Position numbers and translations under genes: made by a program. From a virus, in IMG/VR virus record IMGVR_UViG_3300009093_000136, positions 1 to 21,384 of that record: 21,384 nt of DNA; one strand, written 5' to 3'. This document shows positions 2,293 to 19,454 of this stretch, piece by piece (the stretch's first letter is position 1; each line of letters starts with the position of its first letter). The notes beneath the pieces were generated by a model that saw only the letters and a program-made list of their open reading frames with translations, had not been told where the DNA came from and ran no database searches.

Positions 2293-2586
2293 TTAAAATA
2301 ATGATTTATTAAATTCTATTATATAAGTTGGAAAATCTTTATTAAGTGGGTTATCTCCTTTTTTTTCTGTAATTTTAAATAGTTTAGTTTGTGTTAAATT
2401 AAAAATAAAATTTATTAAAAATAACATTAAATGGGTAGAAGTTAAAAATTTATCTTTAATAACATATTCAGTAATAGATTTAGCTTCTTTATAGACTAAA
2501 GAATATGTATTCTCTCTAAAATCATGAGTAATATAAAGATATATTTTTAATACATCTTCTGATAAAACATTATGATTATAAATCAT
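2293..2586 (-). CDS. Hypothetical protein (97 aa)
   Basis: No family is recognised. The frame is open from ATG 2637, but the ATG at 2586 is preferred: it has GGAG 9 nt upstream (within the 3' end of the polymerase gene) and reduces the overlap with that gene to 11 nt, typical of coupled phage genes. The protein (MIYNHNVLSED...) is rich in Leu, Ile, Phe and Lys. A hydrophobic stretch near residues 52-63 (HLMLFLINFIFNL) could be a buried helix or a weak membrane segment. It sits between polymerase and SSB, so a replication accessory role is possible but unproven. Confidence 0.6.
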   Translation of the reverse strand: MIYNHNVLSEDVLKIYLYITHDFRENTYSLVYKEAKSITEYVIKDKFLTSTHLMLFLINFIFNLTQTKLFKITEKKGDNPLNKDFPTYIIEFNKSLF

Positions 2587-3838
2587 ACCAAGATTCTCCA
2601 GTAGAAACTTCAATTTTAATAGGAACTTTAAATTCATAATTAAACTTCTCTATACTTAGTATAGCAACGTCTTCTAATAATGTCAAATCTTTTTTTGCAT
2701 CTTCTTCAAATTCTTTTTTACAATCCAACATCAAAGAATCATGAATTGTATTAATCATTAAATATTTATTTCTATTGTATATTGCTTTTTCTCTCCAAAA
2801 TTTACCAATCATACTTAAAACAATAGTTGCTGTAGCAAATCCTTGAGTTCTAAAATTTTGAATTTCATTGGGACTATAACTAGCCTCAGATTGCCATTTA
2901 AATTTAGGAGGATATTTTTTAAACTTATATATTCTTCCCCAAGGATCAGTATAAAAACCTTTTTGCTGAACCTCTGACCGTAACCAATCATAATATTGAT
3001 GCAATCGTGGGTATGTTTGACATCTTTTTTGTTTTAAATCTTTAACTTCTTCTATAGATAATCCAGAATTTTCACTTACTGTTTTATTCCCTGCACCATA
3101 TTGAACGCTAAAAGTAAAAACTTTTATTTGTCTTCTAGCTTCTTTTAATTCTCCAGTTTTAACTTTTTCAGAAATTAAATTATAATTTTGTTTAAGTTTT
3201 AAAGCTAAATTTTTTGTATGAGGATCAATATTATTTATAATATCATTTATTGCTTCTATATCTCCAGACATTTGAGCTTCTATTCTAGGTTCTATTCCAG
3301 AATAATCTGCAGAAATTAGAAGTCCTTTTGGAATAAATTGATCATTTTCAAATAAAGGTTTTCCATTAAATCTACTTATATAATGTTGAGTTACTTTTGA
3401 ATCTCCTTGAGGTACATTTTGAATATTCGGATTTTTACAACTGAGTCTCCCAGTAGCAGTGGCTGTAGTATTAAATTGAGAGTGAATTAGTCCATCAGAG
3501 TAAATTAGATTTTCTACAGATGTATAATAAGTACTTAATTGTTTTTTTAAATCTCTAAATTCTAATATTAGCTTGGCAATTTCACCAGAAATTCCTTTAT
3601 TTTTAATTAATACATTTAAAACTTTTTCTCCAACGGAATAAATTCCTTCCTTTTTTGTTTCCCAATCTTCTTTAGCTTTAACGCCTAATCCAGATATATT
3701 TTTCAAAATTTTAACTTTTTTAGTTCTTGAGTTTCCATTTTTATAAAATCCATTTTGTTGAATTTCATCAATTAATAAGAACCCTCCAAAAAAAAGAAGA
3801 CTTAAATGTTGTGGGGAGTTAACATTAAATTTAATCAT
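2576..3838 (-). CDS. DNA polymerase A, polymerase domain only (split gene)
   Basis: 420 aa carrying the palm, fingers and thumb of a family A polymerase without its exonuclease domain. Visible motifs: TATATGR at 125-131, motif A ADYSGIEPR at 177-185 (metal-binding Asp178), motif B (O-helix) ARRQIKVFTFSVQYGAG at 234-250 with Lys239, Phe243 and Tyr247, and motif C NTIHDSLML at 363-371 (Asp367). The residue equivalent to E. coli Phe762 / T7 Tyr526 is Phe243. The protein begins with FNVNSPQHLSLLFFGG, which is where the polymerase domain begins in intact relatives. The exonuclease domain is a separate gene (4064-4756), and 230 plus 420 aa roughly equals one intact phage enzyme. Its ATG lies 1 nt after the TGA of the intervening Cys-finger gene, so translation is probably coupled. 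Both parts presumably assemble in trans. Confidence 0.93.
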   Translation of the reverse strand: MIKFNVNSPQHLSLLFFGGFLLIDEIQQNGFYKNGNSRTKKVKILKNISGLGVKAKEDWETKKEGIYSVGEKVLNVLIKNKGISGEIAKLILEFRDLKKQLSTYYTSVENLIYSDGLIHSQFNTTATATGRLSCKNPNIQNVPQGDSKVTQHYISRFNGKPLFENDQFIPKGLLISADYSGIEPRIEAQMSGDIEAINDIINNIDPHTKNLALKLKQNYNLISEKVKTGELKEARRQIKVFTFSVQYGAGNKTVSENSGLSIEEVKDLKQKRCQTYPRLHQYYDWLRSEVQQKGFYTDPWGRIYKFKKYPPKFKWQSEASYSPNEIQNFRTQGFATATIVLSMIGKFWREKAIYNRNKYLMINTIHDSLMLDCKKEFEEDAKKDLTLLEDVAILSIEKFNYEFKVPIKIEVSTGESWYDL

Positions 3839-3839
3839 A

Positions 3840-4016
3840 TCACAATACCCATTTTATATAATAAAAAAATTTTTTATATTTCAGTAATTCATTTTTAAAT
3901 TGATCCTCTAAAGTCTCTTTTTTTATTTCATTGCAACTCTGACATATACTCGAAAAATGAGCTAATGGATGATTAGAAAGTACATACTTTTTATTACATC
4001 TAACACAGAAATTCAT
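3840..4016 (-). CDS. Cys-finger mini-protein lying between polymerase halves
   Basis: A 58-aa product if translation starts at ATG 4016 (MNFCVRCNKKY), which has GGAG 7 nt upstream; an in-frame ATG at 4037 would add 7 residues. Two CxxC knuckles (CVRC and CQSC) about 20 residues apart suggest one structural zinc site, followed by a Lys/Glu-rich helix (residues 32-50) and an aromatic tail. It fills the gap between the 3'-5' exonuclease gene and the polymerase-domain gene, ending 1 nt before the polymerase start. It may be a remnant of an HNH homing endonuclease that split the polymerase gene, or a zinc-binding bridging subunit. Neither is proven. Confidence 0.65.
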   Translation of the reverse strand: MNFCVRCNKKYVLSNHPLAHFSSICQSCNEIKKETLEDQFKNELLKYKKFFYYIKWVL

Positions 4017-4063
4017 TTTACTACTCCATTTATTCATTAGTTTTCTTTATAATAAAATTATAT

Positions 4064-4756
4064 TCATAACCAATAATCCCGAACTATATTTAATAATTCT
4101 TTTTCTTTCTCATGTAGCTTAATTTCTAACTCTACTTTATTCTTATCAAGAATTTTCCTATCAAGGTACATACCATTCATAGTCATTTCAATTGTAGATA
4201 GTAAGGCATCTTGTTGTAACTCTATAAAGTTAAATAACTTTAGTTCTTGAACTTTCTTGTATTGTTCTAGAAATATAACTTCAGTATCTAATACATCATC
4301 TTGAACATCAGTCAATACTAAATTTTTAGGTATTTCTGAAGTACTTTGCCCCTGATCCCAGTAGGATTCCATCAATTTTTCTCTTTCTATACACCCATAT
4401 TTGTTTACTGCAATGTCTCTCAAAGCTGGATATTTATGTTCTTGCCCTGTTAACATATACTCTACTAAAGATGTATCCCAAATTCTTCCCCCACGTTTAA
4501 AAAATTTCTGTAAATCATCCAAATGCCAGAACCATTGTAAATCATGACTTAAATTATGCCCTACTATTAAATCTTCATCAATCCTGAACTCTTTTAAAAT
4601 ATCAGGATAAATATATTGTGTCCAAAGTTCCTGAGTATTCTTTAATCCTATAGCAACTAACTCATCACCATTTAAAGGTGTCCCTGCTTCTCTTCCCATT
4701 TGTTTAGATTTTTCACTTACATTATTTTCAATGTCTATTACTAAATAAGGAATCAT
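4064..4756 (-). CDS. 3'-5' exonuclease domain of family A DNA polymerase (split gene)
   Basis: 230 aa DnaQ-like proofreading domain. Exo I is VIDIEN (Asp8, Glu10). Exo II is GHNLSHDLQWF (Asp72), with IWDTSLVEYML following as in phage polymerases. Exo III falls around TDVQDDVLDTEV (149-160); the Tyr expected there in T7-like enzymes appears to be Thr149, so proofreading strength is uncertain. The protein ends KELLNIVRDYWL, matching the last helix before the polymerase domain of T7-like enzymes, so the break lies at the domain border. Start: GGAG 6 nt before ATG, and the ATG directly follows the TAA of primase-helicase (TAAATG), implying coupled translation. It probably associates with the separate polymerase domain. 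Confidence 0.88.
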   Translation of the reverse strand: MIPYLVIDIENNVSEKSKQMGREAGTPLNGDELVAIGLKNTQELWTQYIYPDILKEFRIDEDLIVGHNLSHDLQWFWHLDDLQKFFKRGGRIWDTSLVEYMLTGQEHKYPALRDIAVNKYGCIEREKLMESYWDQGQSTSEIPKNLVLTDVQDDVLDTEVIFLEQYKKVQELKLFNFIELQQDALLSTIEMTMNGMYLDRKILDKNKVELEIKLHEKEKELLNIVRDYWL

Positions 4757-14439: not shown

Positions 14440-14898
14440 ATGCCAAATAGAAAAGGAAGTTATAGAAAATATAAAGAAGAGTATGCAGATCAGATGTATA
14501 AATTAATGTCTTCTGAAGGAGCGCTAGACTGCCATTTATGTAAGAAATTCAAGATCTCTGGGAAGACTTTTTATAAATGGTTGGATGAAATAGAAGAATT
14601 TAAAGAAGCTCATGAAAAGGGATTGCCCGCTTGTGAGGCTTGGTGGGTAGATAAGGGGATGGAGGGAATGCAAGGAAAAGTAAAGGGATTTAATGCTATG
14701 ACTTGGATTATGTTTATGAATAATAAGTTTAAATGGTCTAGAAATTCTGGGGAACAAGGCAACCAGACCATAAACATAAATCAAGTTAATGTCCTTCAAG
14801 ATAAATCTAGAGAAGGATTAATAAATTATATAAGAAAAAGTATTGAAAATAATAAAGATGTCATTGATGTTGAATTGATTGACTCTAAAGAAGAATAA
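14440..14898 (+). CDS. terS: Terminase small subunit
   Basis: 152 aa. The N-terminal part contains a helix-turn-helix (ALDCHLCKKFKISGKTFYKW, about residues 28-47) of the DNA-binding type found in small terminases, then DEIEEFKEAHEKGLPACEAWW and MTWIMFMNNKFKWSRN, a conserved central pattern in phage small terminases (KF.W). The C-terminus is acidic (VIDVELIDSKEE), as is usual for the part that contacts the large subunit. It recognises phage DNA and starts packaging. The large-subunit ATPase gene follows after 52 nt, including a GGTAT/ATACC hairpin (about 14919-14937). Confidence 0.85.
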   Translation: MPNRKGSYRKYKEEYADQMYKLMSSEGALDCHLCKKFKISGKTFYKWLDEIEEFKEAHEKGLPACEAWWVDKGMEGMQGKVKGFNAMTWIMFMNNKFKWSRNSGEQGNQTININQVNVLQDKSREGLINYIRKSIENNKDVIDVELIDSKEE

Positions 14899-14950: not shown

Positions 14951-15724
14951 ATGTCAAGTATTCCAACTCAATTAAATTTAAATGAAATGTCTCAGTCAGA
15001 TCTATTAGATCTAGCAAAAGCATTTCAAGTACTTGATGAGAAAAAGCAGTATAATAAACTAGATTTTGTATTTCCTAGATACTTAGCTAATAAAGAAGGA
15101 TACAAAAAACATTTAATATTTATGAAGGCGGGTTCTATTTACAAAGAACGGGCTTTAATTGCTGGTAACCGTACAGGAAAAACATATACTTCTATGGCTG
15201 AAGTAGCTTTTCATGTAACTGGGAAATATCCAGAAGGTTGGGAAGGAAAAAGATTTGAAGGTCCGATAGAAGCTTGGGTGGTAGGTAAAACTCATGAAAC
15301 TACTAGGGATATTCTTCAAAAGTATCTTTATGGAAATTATTTAGATCCCGGAACTGGATTTATTCCTAGAGTGGATATTATTCGTAAAACTACTAAATCT
15401 GGTATTCAAGATGCAGTACAAGATCTTTATGTTCAGCATTATGATGAAAAGGGGCACAAAGACGGAATTAGTCATTTAAGTTTTAAGTCATATGTACAGG
15501 GTATAGAAGCCTTTATGGGAGCACAAGTGCACGTAGTAGGATTAGATGAGGAGCCTCCTGAGCGTGGAATATATTCAGAATGTGTGACTCGTACAATGAC
15601 TACACAGGGAATCATTCTTTGTACATTTACTCCATTAGAAGGATTGAGTGAAGTAGTTTTGAGTTTTCTTCCAGGTGGAAGGTTCCCAATGGGGGGAATA
15701 GGTCCAGTAGAAGAGGTTTTATAA
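14951..15724 (+). CDS. terL: Terminase large subunit, ATPase part (split gene)
   Basis: 257 aa containing only the packaging motor domain. Walker A AGNRTGKT at 71-78, then GPIEAWVVGKTHETTRDI, Walker B HVVGLDEE near residue 199 with the catalytic Glu after it, and the coupling motif LCTFTPLEG near 222-230. It stops after GGIGPVEEVL. Intact relatives continue from that GIGPV region into the KFVV...W.D.PHL start of the nuclease domain, which here is a separate gene (15973-16725). 257 plus 250 aa make a normal full-length large terminase. The stop overlaps the next start (TAATG) and the last codons contain an AGAAGAGG ribosome binding site for it, so the split looks stable and not like fresh decay. 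Confidence 0.92.
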   Translation: MSSIPTQLNLNEMSQSDLLDLAKAFQVLDEKKQYNKLDFVFPRYLANKEGYKKHLIFMKAGSIYKERALIAGNRTGKTYTSMAEVAFHVTGKYPEGWEGKRFEGPIEAWVVGKTHETTRDILQKYLYGNYLDPGTGFIPRVDIIRKTTKSGIQDAVQDLYVQHYDEKGHKDGISHLSFKSYVQGIEAFMGAQVHVVGLDEEPPERGIYSECVTRTMTTQGIILCTFTPLEGLSEVVLSFLPGGRFPMGGIGPVEEVL

Positions 15725-15972
15725 TGTCTAGACCAATAACGCAGTCTGAATATTATCAAACTCACTTTTATCATGGAAAGAAAGATCGTAATAGATTTTA
15801 TCATGTTTTAGAATGTGATATTAGACTATTATCTAGTGAAATTCTAAGACTTTCCAAAATGCCTTATTCCTCTTGGAGAAATAAAGAGAAAATCATATCT
15901 TTAGATAAGCAAATTCAATATATGGAAGAATTATTAGCTGCTTATGAAAGAGATCAAAAAAGGGGATCCTAA
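15724..15972 (+). CDS. 82-aa protein inserted between the two terminase halves
   Basis: Not recognised. MSRPITQSEYYQTHFYHGKK, then a helical region rich in Leu, Ile, Lys and Glu (DIRLLSSEILRLSK and KQIQYMEELLAAYERDQKRG) likely to form a helical hairpin. It begins at the TAATG overlap with the ATPase gene and ends with TAA directly before the ATG of the nuclease gene, in the same frame as the nuclease; readthrough of that TAA would give a fusion. Its position in the linker of the terminase suggests either a helper that joins the two halves or a foreign gene that split the terminase. No intein, LAGLIDADG, GIY-YIG or HNH motif is visible. Confidence 0.75.
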   Translation: MSRPITQSEYYQTHFYHGKKDRNRFYHVLECDIRLLSSEILRLSKMPYSSWRNKEKIISLDKQIQYMEELLAAYERDQKRGS

Positions 15973-16725
15973 ATGGCTAAATTTGTTGTTAATTTAACTT
16001 GGGAAGATGCTCCACATTTATCAGAAAATGATAAAAAAGAACTATTAGCATCTTATTCACCCCATGAACGTGATGCACGTAGTAAAGGTATTCCTCAATT
16101 AGGTGCAGGAGCTATTTACCCTGTAGTAGAGGGGGATATTGTAGTAGAAGCTTTTAAAATTCCAGATCATTGGCCTAGAGCGTATGCTTTAGATGTTGGT
16201 TGGAATAAAACAGCAGCTTTATGGGGGGCTTATGATGCTAAATCAGATATTTGGTATCTTTACTCTGAATATTATAAAGGACAAGCAGAACCTTCTACTC
16301 ATGTAAATGCTATACAAGCCCGTGGAGCATGGATGTCTGGAGTAATTGATTGTCATAGTAAAGGAAGAGGCCAAGCTCATGGGGAACAATTAAGTGTTTT
16401 ATATGAAAATTTAGGTTTACGACTAGGATTAGCTTTAAATGGTCCGGGAACTTTAGAACCTAGCATTTTAGAGACATTTCAAAGATTAGTTAGTGGTAGA
16501 TTAAAAGTTTTTTCTCATTTATATAATTGGTTATCTGAATTTCGAGTATATAGACGAGATAAAAATGGAAAGATTGTAGATGAGAATGATCATTTAATGG
16601 ATTGTACTAGATTTTTAATTACTTCTGGGCATTTAGTTATGGATGTTCCTCCAGAAGAAGATGCTGATGATGCTAAAATTACTCGCCCATATTATCAAGG
16701 GCAATCACCTGTTTGTGGATACTAA
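15973..16725 (+). CDS. terL: Terminase large subunit, nuclease part (split gene)
   Basis: 250 aa. It begins AKFVVNLTWEDAPHLSEND, the usual linker into the nuclease domain, and has SPHERDARSKGIPQLGAGAIYP, then the RNase H-like catalytic Asp residues: Asp74 in YALDVGWNKTAALWGAYD, Asp126 in GVIDCHSKGRGQ and Asp206/Asp210 in ENDHLMDCTRF. Position 126 is followed by Cys where relatives usually have Pro-Ala-Ala. The domain cuts the DNA concatemer at packaging start and end. GGGGA lies 7 nt before the start, which directly follows the TAA of the 82-aa gene. It must work in trans with the separate ATPase subunit. Confidence 0.92.
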   Translation: MAKFVVNLTWEDAPHLSENDKKELLASYSPHERDARSKGIPQLGAGAIYPVVEGDIVVEAFKIPDHWPRAYALDVGWNKTAALWGAYDAKSDIWYLYSEYYKGQAEPSTHVNAIQARGAWMSGVIDCHSKGRGQAHGEQLSVLYENLGLRLGLALNGPGTLEPSILETFQRLVSGRLKVFSHLYNWLSEFRVYRRDKNGKIVDENDHLMDCTRFLITSGHLVMDVPPEEDADDAKITRPYYQGQSPVCGY

Positions 16726-16731
16726 TAATTC

Positions 16732-18909
16732 ATGTTAGATTATTCTGATAATTACAATAACGAAAGTAATTCTAAAGATTTACTTATAAAGTATAGCAAA
16801 AGTGATAATATAGCAGAACTTTTGAGTAACGAAGAATTACAAGAAATTGTTAATAAATTAATAGCTGGTATAAATGAAGATGAGAATAGTCAACAAGAAT
16901 GGATGACAAAGGTTGATGATGTCCAAAGATTAATGAAGTGTAGTAGAGATCCAAAAAATTATCCACTTCCTAACTCAGCTAATATTAAATATCCTTTAAT
17001 ACAGGATGCTTGTAATCATTTTGCATCCAGGACTTATCCAGAATTAGTTCATGATGGGAAAGCGGTTAAATTTGAATTAGTAGGTTTAGATACTTCCGGA
17101 GTATTGGCCCAAATTGCAGAAATAGGGTCTAATTATTTAAATTATAAATTATTGGGTCCAGATAACGAGTGGGAAACATCCTTAGATAAATTGGTAAATA
17201 TTTATCCAATTAATGGATTTGTCTTAAAAAAGACATATTATGATCCCTTCAGACAAAAAATTTGTAGTGATGTTTGTAACTATAAAGATATAATTGTTCA
17301 AAATTCTTGTGAAATTCAATGTTTACAAGATTTAAGACGTATTACCCATAAATTATATTATAATTACAATACTTTAATTGAGGGTTGTAGAAAAGGATTA
17401 TACCTAGAAGAATCTTGTAATAATATAGTGGCATACTATTCAGAAATGCAAGTTCCTCCAAGATGTAAACTCCTAGAATGTCATTGTTTTTTAGATCTTG
17501 ATGAAGATGGTTATGAAGAGCCTTATATTGTTACTTTACATAAAGAAACTTATAAAGTTTTAAGAATAGTAGCTAGATATAAAAAAGAAGATATTCAAAC
17601 CTTAAATAATAAGATTAGTTGTATTTATCCCAGAGACTATTTTACAGATTTTCATTTTCTACCTTCTCCTGATGGAAACTTTTTAAGTATAGGTTATGGA
17701 TTTCTATTATTACATGTAAATGAAACAGTCAATAGTATTTTTAATCAATTAGTAGATGCTGGTAGTTTGGCAAATATGCAAACTGGGATTATAGATTCCA
17801 GGATTAAAATTATGGGAGGTCAAATAGGAGTTGACCCAGGTCAGTGGACTAAGGCTAAAGGAGTAGTCGGACAATCTTTAAAAGAAGGGTTATACCCGAT
17901 TCAATATAAAGAACCTTCTACAGTTCTTTATCAATTATTAGGAATGTTAATACAAGCTGCTCAAGATTTAACCTCTAGTACAGATGTGATGCAAGGTACA
18001 GCAAATGCTACGAATGTACCAGCTACTTCAATGCTAGCAATGGTTGAACAAGGGATTAAAAGATTTAGTGCAATTCAAAAGAGACTATATAGATCTTTAA
18101 AAGAAGAATACCATAAAATATTTGCTTTATATAGAGAATACGTAGATCCAAAAGAATTCGCTGAGTTAAGTGGAGACCCTACAATTACTCCAGAAATGAT
18201 TTTTGGAAATGATAATATTCGAGTATTTCCAATAGCAGACCCTAATTTAGCAACTGATGCTCAGAGACTTTCTCAAGCTCAAGTAATCATGAGTTTAGTG
18301 CAACAACCAGGGATTAATAAGGCAGAATGTTATAAAAGGTTATTAACCGCTGCTAAAGTACCCCATCCTGAGCTGATTGCACCCCCGGAAATGGCTCAAC
18401 AAGCACAAGCACCAGATCCAAGACTTCTGGAAGCTCATGCAGATATGATTAATAAACAACAAGAAACCATGATTAAAGCTCGACACCAAGATTTAAAAGA
18501 AAAAGAATTTGCTGCTAAATTAGCAAAAATGGAAGCAGAAATTACGAATTTACAATCACAAGCAGTAAAAAATGTATCTCAAGCTCATGCTGATCAACGT
18601 CAAGTAGACATTTCTGACCATATGTCTAAATTAGAGACTATTAAAACTCAATTACAACATATGACCGAAGCTCACCAACAATTAGTAGATTCAAATATAG
18701 CTAATAAAGAAATTGCTTTAAAACAACAACAAATTCAGAATCAACATCAACAAGTAATGACCGGACATGCAATTACTCACATTGATAATGCCCAACAAAA
18801 TGATTTACAACAGCAACAAATAAATAATAATAATCCACAAGAGGGTACTAATAATGGAGCAGATAACTCCGGATCAGATAACAATGTGGAGCAATCATCC
18901 AATAACTAA
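16732..18909 (+). CDS. Portal protein
   Basis: 725 aa, the size of P22-type portals. N-terminal region with LPNSANIKYPLIQDACNHFASR (membrane-like but soluble helix pattern of portals), then a core with FLDLDEDGYEEPYIVTLHKET, FHFLPSPDGNFLSIGYGF and the conserved NATNVPATSMLAMVEQG helix at about 424-440. The last 170 residues are a long coiled-coil then Gln/Asn-rich tail (QQQQINNNNPQEG...). The dodecameric ring sits at the capsid vertex, receives the terminase and passes DNA. It lies 6 nt after the terminase nuclease gene. The Gln/Asn-rich barrel/tail may form the helical barrel seen in P22. The start at 16732 has only a weak ribosome binding site. Confidence 0.92.
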   Translation: MLDYSDNYNNESNSKDLLIKYSKSDNIAELLSNEELQEIVNKLIAGINEDENSQQEWMTKVDDVQRLMKCSRDPKNYPLPNSANIKYPLIQDACNHFASRTYPELVHDGKAVKFELVGLDTSGVLAQIAEIGSNYLNYKLLGPDNEWETSLDKLVNIYPINGFVLKKTYYDPFRQKICSDVCNYKDIIVQNSCEIQCLQDLRRITHKLYYNYNTLIEGCRKGLYLEESCNNIVAYYSEMQVPPRCKLLECHCFLDLDEDGYEEPYIVTLHKETYKVLRIVARYKKEDIQTLNNKISCIYPRDYFTDFHFLPSPDGNFLSIGYGFLLLHVNETVNSIFNQLVDAGSLANMQTGIIDSRIKIMGGQIGVDPGQWTKAKGVVGQSLKEGLYPIQYKEPSTVLYQLLGMLIQAAQDLTSSTDVMQGTANATNVPATSMLAMVEQGIKRFSAIQKRLYRSLKEEYHKIFALYREYVDPKEFAELSGDPTITPEMIFGNDNIRVFPIADPNLATDAQRLSQAQVIMSLVQQPGINKAECYKRLLTAAKVPHPELIAPPEMAQQAQAPDPRLLEAHADMINKQQETMIKARHQDLKEKEFAAKLAKMEAEITNLQSQAVKNVSQAHADQRQVDISDHMSKLETIKTQLQHMTEAHQQLVDSNIANKEIALKQQQIQNQHQQVMTGHAITHIDNAQQNDLQQQQINNNNPQEGTNNGADNSGSDNNVEQSSNN

Positions 18910-19144
18910 GAAATTTATTGAGATTTTAATAGAGATTTATACAGCTAATAAAGAAGATGTAATACAAACAATTTTAAATTCAAGTGCCGAAGATATAAAG
19001 AATAAACAAGGAAGATTAATACAACTAAAAGGACAGATCCATGTTATAGAAAGACTTTTAGATTTAAAAACATTTCTAATAGAAGAAATACAGGAGGAAT
19101 ATGAGATACAGAGTGGTGGGGCCAAGAGTTTTAGTGAAGATTAA
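18854..19144 (+). CDS. Hypothetical protein after portal (96 aa)
   Basis: Starts within the portal 3' end at ATG 18854, with AGAGGG 8 nt upstream; another in-frame ATG lies at 18884. The protein is helical and acidic (KFIEILIEIYTANKEDVIQ, LIQLKGQIHVIERLLDLK, LIEEIQEEYEIQ). It overlaps the next gene by 44 nt. Small helical proteins between portal and scaffold are common in P22-like and GTA-like phages, often of unknown role in head assembly. No motif allows more. Confidence 0.65.
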   Translation: MEQITPDQITMWSNHPITKKFIEILIEIYTANKEDVIQTILNSSAEDIKNKQGRLIQLKGQIHVIERLLDLKTFLIEEIQEEYEIQSGGAKSFSED

Positions 19145-19454
19145 AAAAGCAGATGAAAAGTTTGAGGGATCAACATTAATTCGACCAGATACAAGTTTAG
19201 ATAAAGATACTAGACATCAAAGTACTGGTGTAATTGAATATATCGATGAAGAATACAATAAAGATCAATTAATGAAATTAGGAGATACAATTCATTTTTC
19301 CAGATATGCTGCAGTTAGATTAAATCCAAAAGAAAATGAAAGTTATGAATTTTGGGTTTTAAATATTAAAGATATTTTATGTATTGAATATGAACCCACA
19401 GAAAAAAGTGGATTAGCAAGTTCAAAAAATTATTTAGAAGATTTTAAAATATAG
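19101..19454 (+). CDS. GroES-like co-chaperonin
   Basis: 117 aa; bacterial GroES is about 97. The Cpn10 pattern is present: GPRVLVKIKKADEKFEGS (start of the beta barrel), a mobile-loop region about 20-38 with the hydrophobic STLI at 24-27 that would dock on GroEL, STGVIEYI (41-48), KLGDTIHFSRYAAVRL (59-74) and the final strand DILCIEYE (91-98), followed by a 19-residue extension. A strong AGGAGG precedes the start. The gene stands directly before the scaffold and capsid genes, so, like T4 gp31, it probably adapts host GroEL to fold the large capsid protein. No GroEL is encoded here, so it must use the host one. Confidence 0.88.
   Translation: MRYRVVGPRVLVKIKKADEKFEGSTLIRPDTSLDKDTRHQSTGVIEYIDEEYNKDQLMKLGDTIHFSRYAAVRLNPKENESYEFWVLNIKDILCIEYEPTEKSGLASSKNYLEDFKI

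Follow-up and report, generated by a model that had tools for sequence, protein, structure and literature searches.

The window analyzed here is the whole 21,384-nt stretch of viral DNA, and its packaging genes comprise a terminase small subunit gene (TerS, 152 aa; 14440..14898, + strand; phrog_309, E 1e-14), three ORFs of 257, 82 and 250 aa on the same strand, and a portal protein gene (725 aa; 16732..18909, +; phrog_1216, E 1e-17). With the three ORFs read as a terL unit, the gene order given by PHROGs (TerS, terL unit, portal) is the normal packaging order. The first ORF (piece 1; 14951..15724, +) is the ASCE ATPase core of the large terminase, TerL, and matches Pfam Terminase_6N (E 4e-13, profile positions 3–149 of 215) and phrog_31467 (E 4e-52), which carries the label 'unknown function'. 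It contains, all on the + strand, the Walker A or P-loop motif AGNRTGKT (residues 71–78; 15161..15184), the Walker B motif VVGLDEE with the catalytic Glu (residues 195–201; 15533..15553) and the coupling motif, motif III, TFTP (residues 225–228; 15623..15634); N73, G76 and K77, D199, E200 and E201, and T225–P228 are respectively invariant in an alignment of 12 relatives. Piece 1 closes with a short tail, FPMGGIGPVEEVL, conserved across the window's clade. The second ORF (15724..15972, +), supported by homologues, encodes an 82-aa protein predicted by AlphaFold to form an antiparallel helical hairpin (residues 22–45 and 51–81). The third ORF (piece 2; 15973..16725, +) carries the ATPase lid subdomain, the linker and an RNase H-like nuclease, as assigned by the continuation of Terminase_6N (profile positions 162–210 at residues 3–51), by phrog_5653 (TerL) and by the match of the family to the P22 gp2 nuclease.

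All the ATPase motifs thus lie within piece 1 and the nuclease Asp motifs (LDVGW, IDC and NDHLMD) all within piece 2, in agreement with the initial annotation; ATPase and nuclease form a single chain in 159 relatives and are divided between two ORFs in the window. The two pieces sum to 507 aa as compared with 466–543 aa in intact relatives, consistent with the view that they make up one normal TerL, and the junctions at which stop and start codons touch are TAATG and TAAATG, as had been described. The accompanying statement that each gene has its own Shine-Dalgarno sequence holds for the 82-aa gene (-6.5 kcal/mol) and piece 2 (-7.8 kcal/mol), measured against a 5% limit of -5.6 kcal/mol for random sites, but not for piece 1, where the candidate is weak and distant (-3.6 kcal/mol). 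The unit is organized and translationally packed, with an identical layout in its closest relatives, and represents a real fission of TerL and not decay. Separately, the 82-aa ORF and piece 2 lie in one frame (15724-16725) with a single TAA as the sole separator, read-through of which would yield a fused protein; in sisters L171 and L173 a 4-base overlap is found instead, and the TAA-only separation of the window is not conserved.

Position of the break in the TerL fold

The break had been placed precisely in the linker between ATPase and nuclease, and this placement has to be corrected: it falls ~45–60 residues before that linker, at the junction between the ASCE core and the lid. The Pfam ATPase model itself extends into the third gene, as noted above. 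In a structural model of the intact relative L238 (530 aa; pLDDT 88), residues 39–313 aligned with the solved ATPase domains of P74-26 and residues 306–493 with the P22 nuclease domain. The ATPase fold of the model extends to about residue 308 and the break corresponds to residues 246–263, so that the break is inside the ATPase domain and not in the ATPase–nuclease linker. In the model this site is a lower-confidence loop that follows the motif III strand and helix. Piece 1 ends ~16–18 residues past the last core helix, and piece 2 begins 9 residues ahead of a conserved Trp.

The D6E phage enzyme leads to the same placement. The beginning of piece 2 aligns to D6E TerL from residue 195, ahead of the ATPase–nuclease linker at 230–241 (PMC5727402), and piece 2 therefore supplies the lid as well as the nuclease; the lid subdomain occupies approximately residues 1–42 (15973..16098, +), and the P22 nuclease construct begins downstream of it. 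The D6E lid residues that have been named include Y213, near the nucleotide, and R224 (PMC5727402), and the nucleotide site of the split enzyme should accordingly be completed across two chains. The succession of ASCE core, lid and nuclease is the same as in the large terminases of phage D6E and P22 gp2 (solved structures 5oe8, 4dkw) and in Terminase_6N, with the difference that those are single chains whereas here there are two.

Recurrence of the split among relatives

Both halves were used as tblastn queries against viral contigs, phages and bacterial genomes, giving 301 classifiable loci that reduced to 252 non-redundant ones. TerL is intact in 159 and split in 93 of these, a proportion that is not a population frequency because the loci were picked by similarity to the window; the earlier view that such a fission is rare does not stand, as it recurs widely in this TerL group. 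Together with the layout shared by the closest relatives, these counts place the arrangement beyond chance. Among genome contigs, prophages of isolates included, 31 of 64 classifiable loci are split; cultured bacteria with a split-terL prophage locus include Acetobacter musti and Sphingomonas melonis. The evidence for splits is drawn from metagenomic contigs, prophages and one complete genome, itself metagenomic (as are most relatives), and among the phage records inspected a split TerL was not found in any cultured phage isolate. The same three-gene layout is found in L001, L094, L171, L172 and L173, and is common to independent contigs at 55–69% identity. The complete circular 40-kb metagenomic phage genome MW202785.1 has a single site for each half and no further TerL of the family; throughout the 17 long split-TerL records of which it is one, the ATPase half occurs once each and the Terminase_6N matches are confined to the two pieces of that TerL. 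Both pieces are under purifying selection (dN/dS 0.05–0.43): an essential gene is divided, at a site that tolerates it, into two separately translated, conserved ORFs. One of the unbroken genes, L314 (MW202478.1, 1519-3390), is annotated as a TerL of 623 aa, ~130 aa above the usual length, apparently through a C-terminal extension.

All 93 splits interrupt one and the same loop, in a half-query test that detects breaks solely between the midpoints of the two query halves: piece 1 ends 3–26 aa past a reference Leu, and the start of piece 2 is exactly 9 or 14 aa ahead of a reference Trp in 84 of the 93. A full-length query gave 109 frame breaks; a single stretch of 40 residues accounts for 97 of them, and for nearly all that are genuine, the remaining 12 having for the most part the appearance of stray matches. 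The gap between the pieces ranges from a 4-base ATGA overlap up to 3.9 kb; with start codons assigned by rule, the 93 loci include 24 exact 4-base overlaps, 11 other overlaps, and gaps of 0–60 bases (5 loci), 61–250 bases (17), 251–600 bases (22) and longer (14). The exact 4-base overlap is present also in prophages of cultured isolates (L250, L272, L270 and L292).

A tree built with FastTree from 202 sequences requires 22 transitions between the split and intact states, of which well-supported branches force at least 14, although gains and re-fusions are not separable with certainty in this tree; the root state is intact when distant intact TerLs serve as outgroup. At L165 and L169 the gap contains a nuclease gene, and in their respective intact sisters, L238 and L039, the loop is uninterrupted; L010 and L161, which are 84–88% identical, carry respectively an AP2/HNH remnant and a bare ATGA overlap. 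Because an endonuclease gene sits exactly where the sister's loop is uninterrupted, nuclease insertion is likely the cause of at least some splits. The comparisons support insertion followed by later loss as one route to a split and do not extend it to all; a point mutation that gives an ATGA overlap would be an equally simple route.

Interpretation of the gap and its occupants

The reading we favor, and consider very probable, is that of a large terminase in pieces: two polypeptides from one packed operon, split at a recurrent core/lid site, with the 82-aa protein as a lineage-specific occupant. The phage would make TerL as piece 1, the ASCE core with all the ATPase catalytic motifs, and piece 2, the lid, linker and nuclease, and we infer that the halves most likely associate non-covalently, much as the intact domains would fold together, into the packaging motor. 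The break lies in a variable loop between core and lid that tolerates interruption, and the sequences show that TerL of this group has been split there repeatedly. The resulting gap serves as a landing site for other genes, its occupant in the window's lineage being the putative helical-hairpin protein, which is kept at this site in the sisters.

Homologues of the 82-aa protein are confined to four sister phages (L173, L171, L172 and L094), where they occupy the same gap in terL. A profile of the five gap proteins was run against the 34,743 ORFs of the retrieved loci and matched only those five, plus one duplicate record, and a DNA pattern scan of viral contigs built on their alignment, a method that reaches close relatives only, found L094/L170 only. 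The sister versions are 69–84 aa long with pairwise identities of 27–56%, and the second half is conserved (YLEELLAAYERDxK); pN/pS measured against the window's copy is 0.54–0.74. No match to the family was obtained in Pfam, in PHROGs or by tblastn of phage records, and the AlphaFold model (pLDDT 75, core ~90) gave no significant fold match in a viral structure library (all E > 0.4).

This protein is retained at a single position in five related genomes, where it closely adjoins the gene on either side, and it is absent from every other place covered (the examined loci, the phage records and the pattern scan of viral contigs). Along with the well-predicted core of the hairpin and the conserved extra tail on piece 1 in the same clade, this would suit a third subunit dedicated to linking the ATPase core to the lid-nuclease piece. 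Such a role is nonetheless unlikely, as close split relatives manage without the protein: L184 has no gap gene and a direct ATGA overlap, L175 has an unrelated 111-aa ORF, and the 87-aa ORF of L001 is not matched by the family profile. Moreover, the 82-aa gene evolves faster than piece 2 (pN/pS 0.54–0.79 vs 0.32–0.46), and most other phages hold unrelated genes in the gap. The extension of this idea to a true three-protein machine in the clade, with hairpin and piece 1 tail bridging core to lid-nuclease and regulating the motor stroke, is no less unlikely. An accessory role of the putative hairpin is possible, as is a role as tether. Since the protein is absent from the nearby split phages L175 and L184 it is treated as a lineage-specific occupant, and in our judgement it came later, as a passenger or with an accessory function, and did not itself cause the split.

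The contents of the gap elsewhere bear on a broader proposal, that all the splits arose by homing-endonuclease insertion and that the 82-aa gene is a degenerate endonuclease. Four nuclease families are found in the gap of other phages, namely HNH_3+AP2 (L107 and L109), HNH_3+NUMOD4 (L165), endonuclease VII (L169) and T5orf172/MUG113 (L130), in addition to remnants such as that of L010 beside the bare overlap of L161. There is no endonuclease gene in the window's gap, however, the 82-aa family has no Pfam, PHROG or significant structural match, and many splits show no nuclease trace. A recognizable nuclease gene is present in no more than a few of the 93 split loci, so that nuclease insertion as the general cause does not follow from these counts, and the all-endonuclease proposal is distinctly improbable. 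The related suggestion of the initial annotation, that the gap gene is the invader that split terL, likewise does not suit the window's own protein, which has no nuclease signature and is lacking from the two split neighbors just described; as a general idea it finds support elsewhere, in endonuclease genes located exactly in the break beside intact sisters. Other gaps contain a Tad2-like anti-Thoeris protein, that is, a Thoeris anti-defence protein (L191, 5274-5732), or an ExbB/MotA-like protein and its neighbors (L064, 1584-2607, inside a 2-kb gap), and the remainder hold many unknown genes or no gene; a defence-gene scan of ten large gap genes gave no match. The sequences thus show the gap to be a hot spot for nuclease genes, an anti-defence gene and other cargo, or reduced to a bare ATGA overlap.

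A self-splicing intron that carries the 82-aa ORF, with the halves rejoined in RNA, has precedent in the spliced terL genes of ICP1 and the Jug phages (PMC10448857, PMC12363816). Folding of the gap region, proposed at the outset as a check, gives structures only somewhat better than those of shuffled sequence (z -2.0, single-strand fold), and no group I, group II or other Rfam covariance model matches above threshold anywhere in the window or in any of 17 split relatives. Nearly all of the gap codes for protein, with conservation at the protein level, and piece 2 has its own start and a strong Shine-Dalgarno sequence. In the relatives with 4-base overlaps, isolate prophages included, there is no space for an intron and sequencing error is implausible; an intron is not supported and is very improbable.

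In split inteins the N-intein is ~100 aa and the C-intein ~35 aa, and the ~16–18 residues after the core helix and the 9 before the Trp thus leave no room for either segment; nor is there a Pfam intein match. Joining of the halves by protein splicing, for which phage split inteins whose gap contains a nuclease gene offer a precedent (PMC6892783), has for these reasons a negligible probability. Errors of sequencing or assembly and decay of the gene, which the metagenomic origin of the window might suggest, are equally improbable, since independent contigs at 55–69% identity, MW202785.1 and isolate genomes are all split and dN/dS is far below 1.

Parallels, significance and other two-piece genes

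The preferred reading of a TerL made in two pieces is closest in principle to the split nrdA of Aeromonas phage Aeh1 (interrupted by mobE), the T4 topoisomerase (gene 60/mobA) and the DNA polymerase 43A/43B, in which two adjacent genes likewise encode the two polypeptides of an essential phage enzyme and the break holds an endonuclease gene or a spacer. The Aeh1 and T4 cases are functional split enzymes that arose by homing-endonuclease insertion, and the halves reassemble for the ribonucleotide reductase and the polymerase of such genes-in-pieces systems (PMC2988022). The present case differs in that the enzyme is a packaging motor, one loop has been broken many times, and the gap gene of the window is not an endonuclease. 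The ICP1 vibriophage and the Jug phages share an interrupted terL, often with endonuclease genes nearby (PMC10448857, PMC12363816), but theirs are introns rejoined in RNA, whereas here the halves start and stop separately, in relatives down to 4-base overlaps. A search of the open-access literature found only these intron cases and no report of an unspliced, recurrent fission of TerL.

TerL serves as a universal marker for tailed phages, in which it is taken to be a single chain, and provides the model for ATP-driven DNA movement. Its recurrent cuts between core and lid, down to a 4-base overlap, suggest that engine and lever need not be covalently linked, and two separately mutable polypeptides would make models of lid motion directly testable. 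An essential gene here also acts as a hot spot into which nucleases and anti-defence genes insert. Split TerLs probably carry wrong annotations at present, as the label of the PHROG that matches the ATPase half illustrates.

The OM43 phages MEP401/402 resemble the window in that one of their core genes is divided and an unidentified small ORF separates its two parts (PMC10580990); their split gene is a DNA polymerase and not TerL, and the window phage has its polymerase split as well, in a similar way. The family A DNA polymerase of the window (2576-4756, - strand) consists of an exonuclease half (4064-4756, 230 aa) and a polymerase half (2576-3838, 420 aa), and between them lies a 65-aa four-cysteine ORF (3840-4037) whose similarity to HNH_5 and zinc fingers is weak and below cut-off. 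L315, which is the record of L175, has a separate polymerase half as well, of 449 aa (240-1589), followed by several small genes, and the exonuclease half was not found within the 1.5 kb examined. A ClpP-like (head maturation) protease gene (1259-1807, -) lies in the replication module of the window, distant from the head genes. A gene for a Cpn10 (GroES-like) co-chaperonin is located in the head module (19101-19454), and MW202785.1 likewise has a GroES gene near the terminase.
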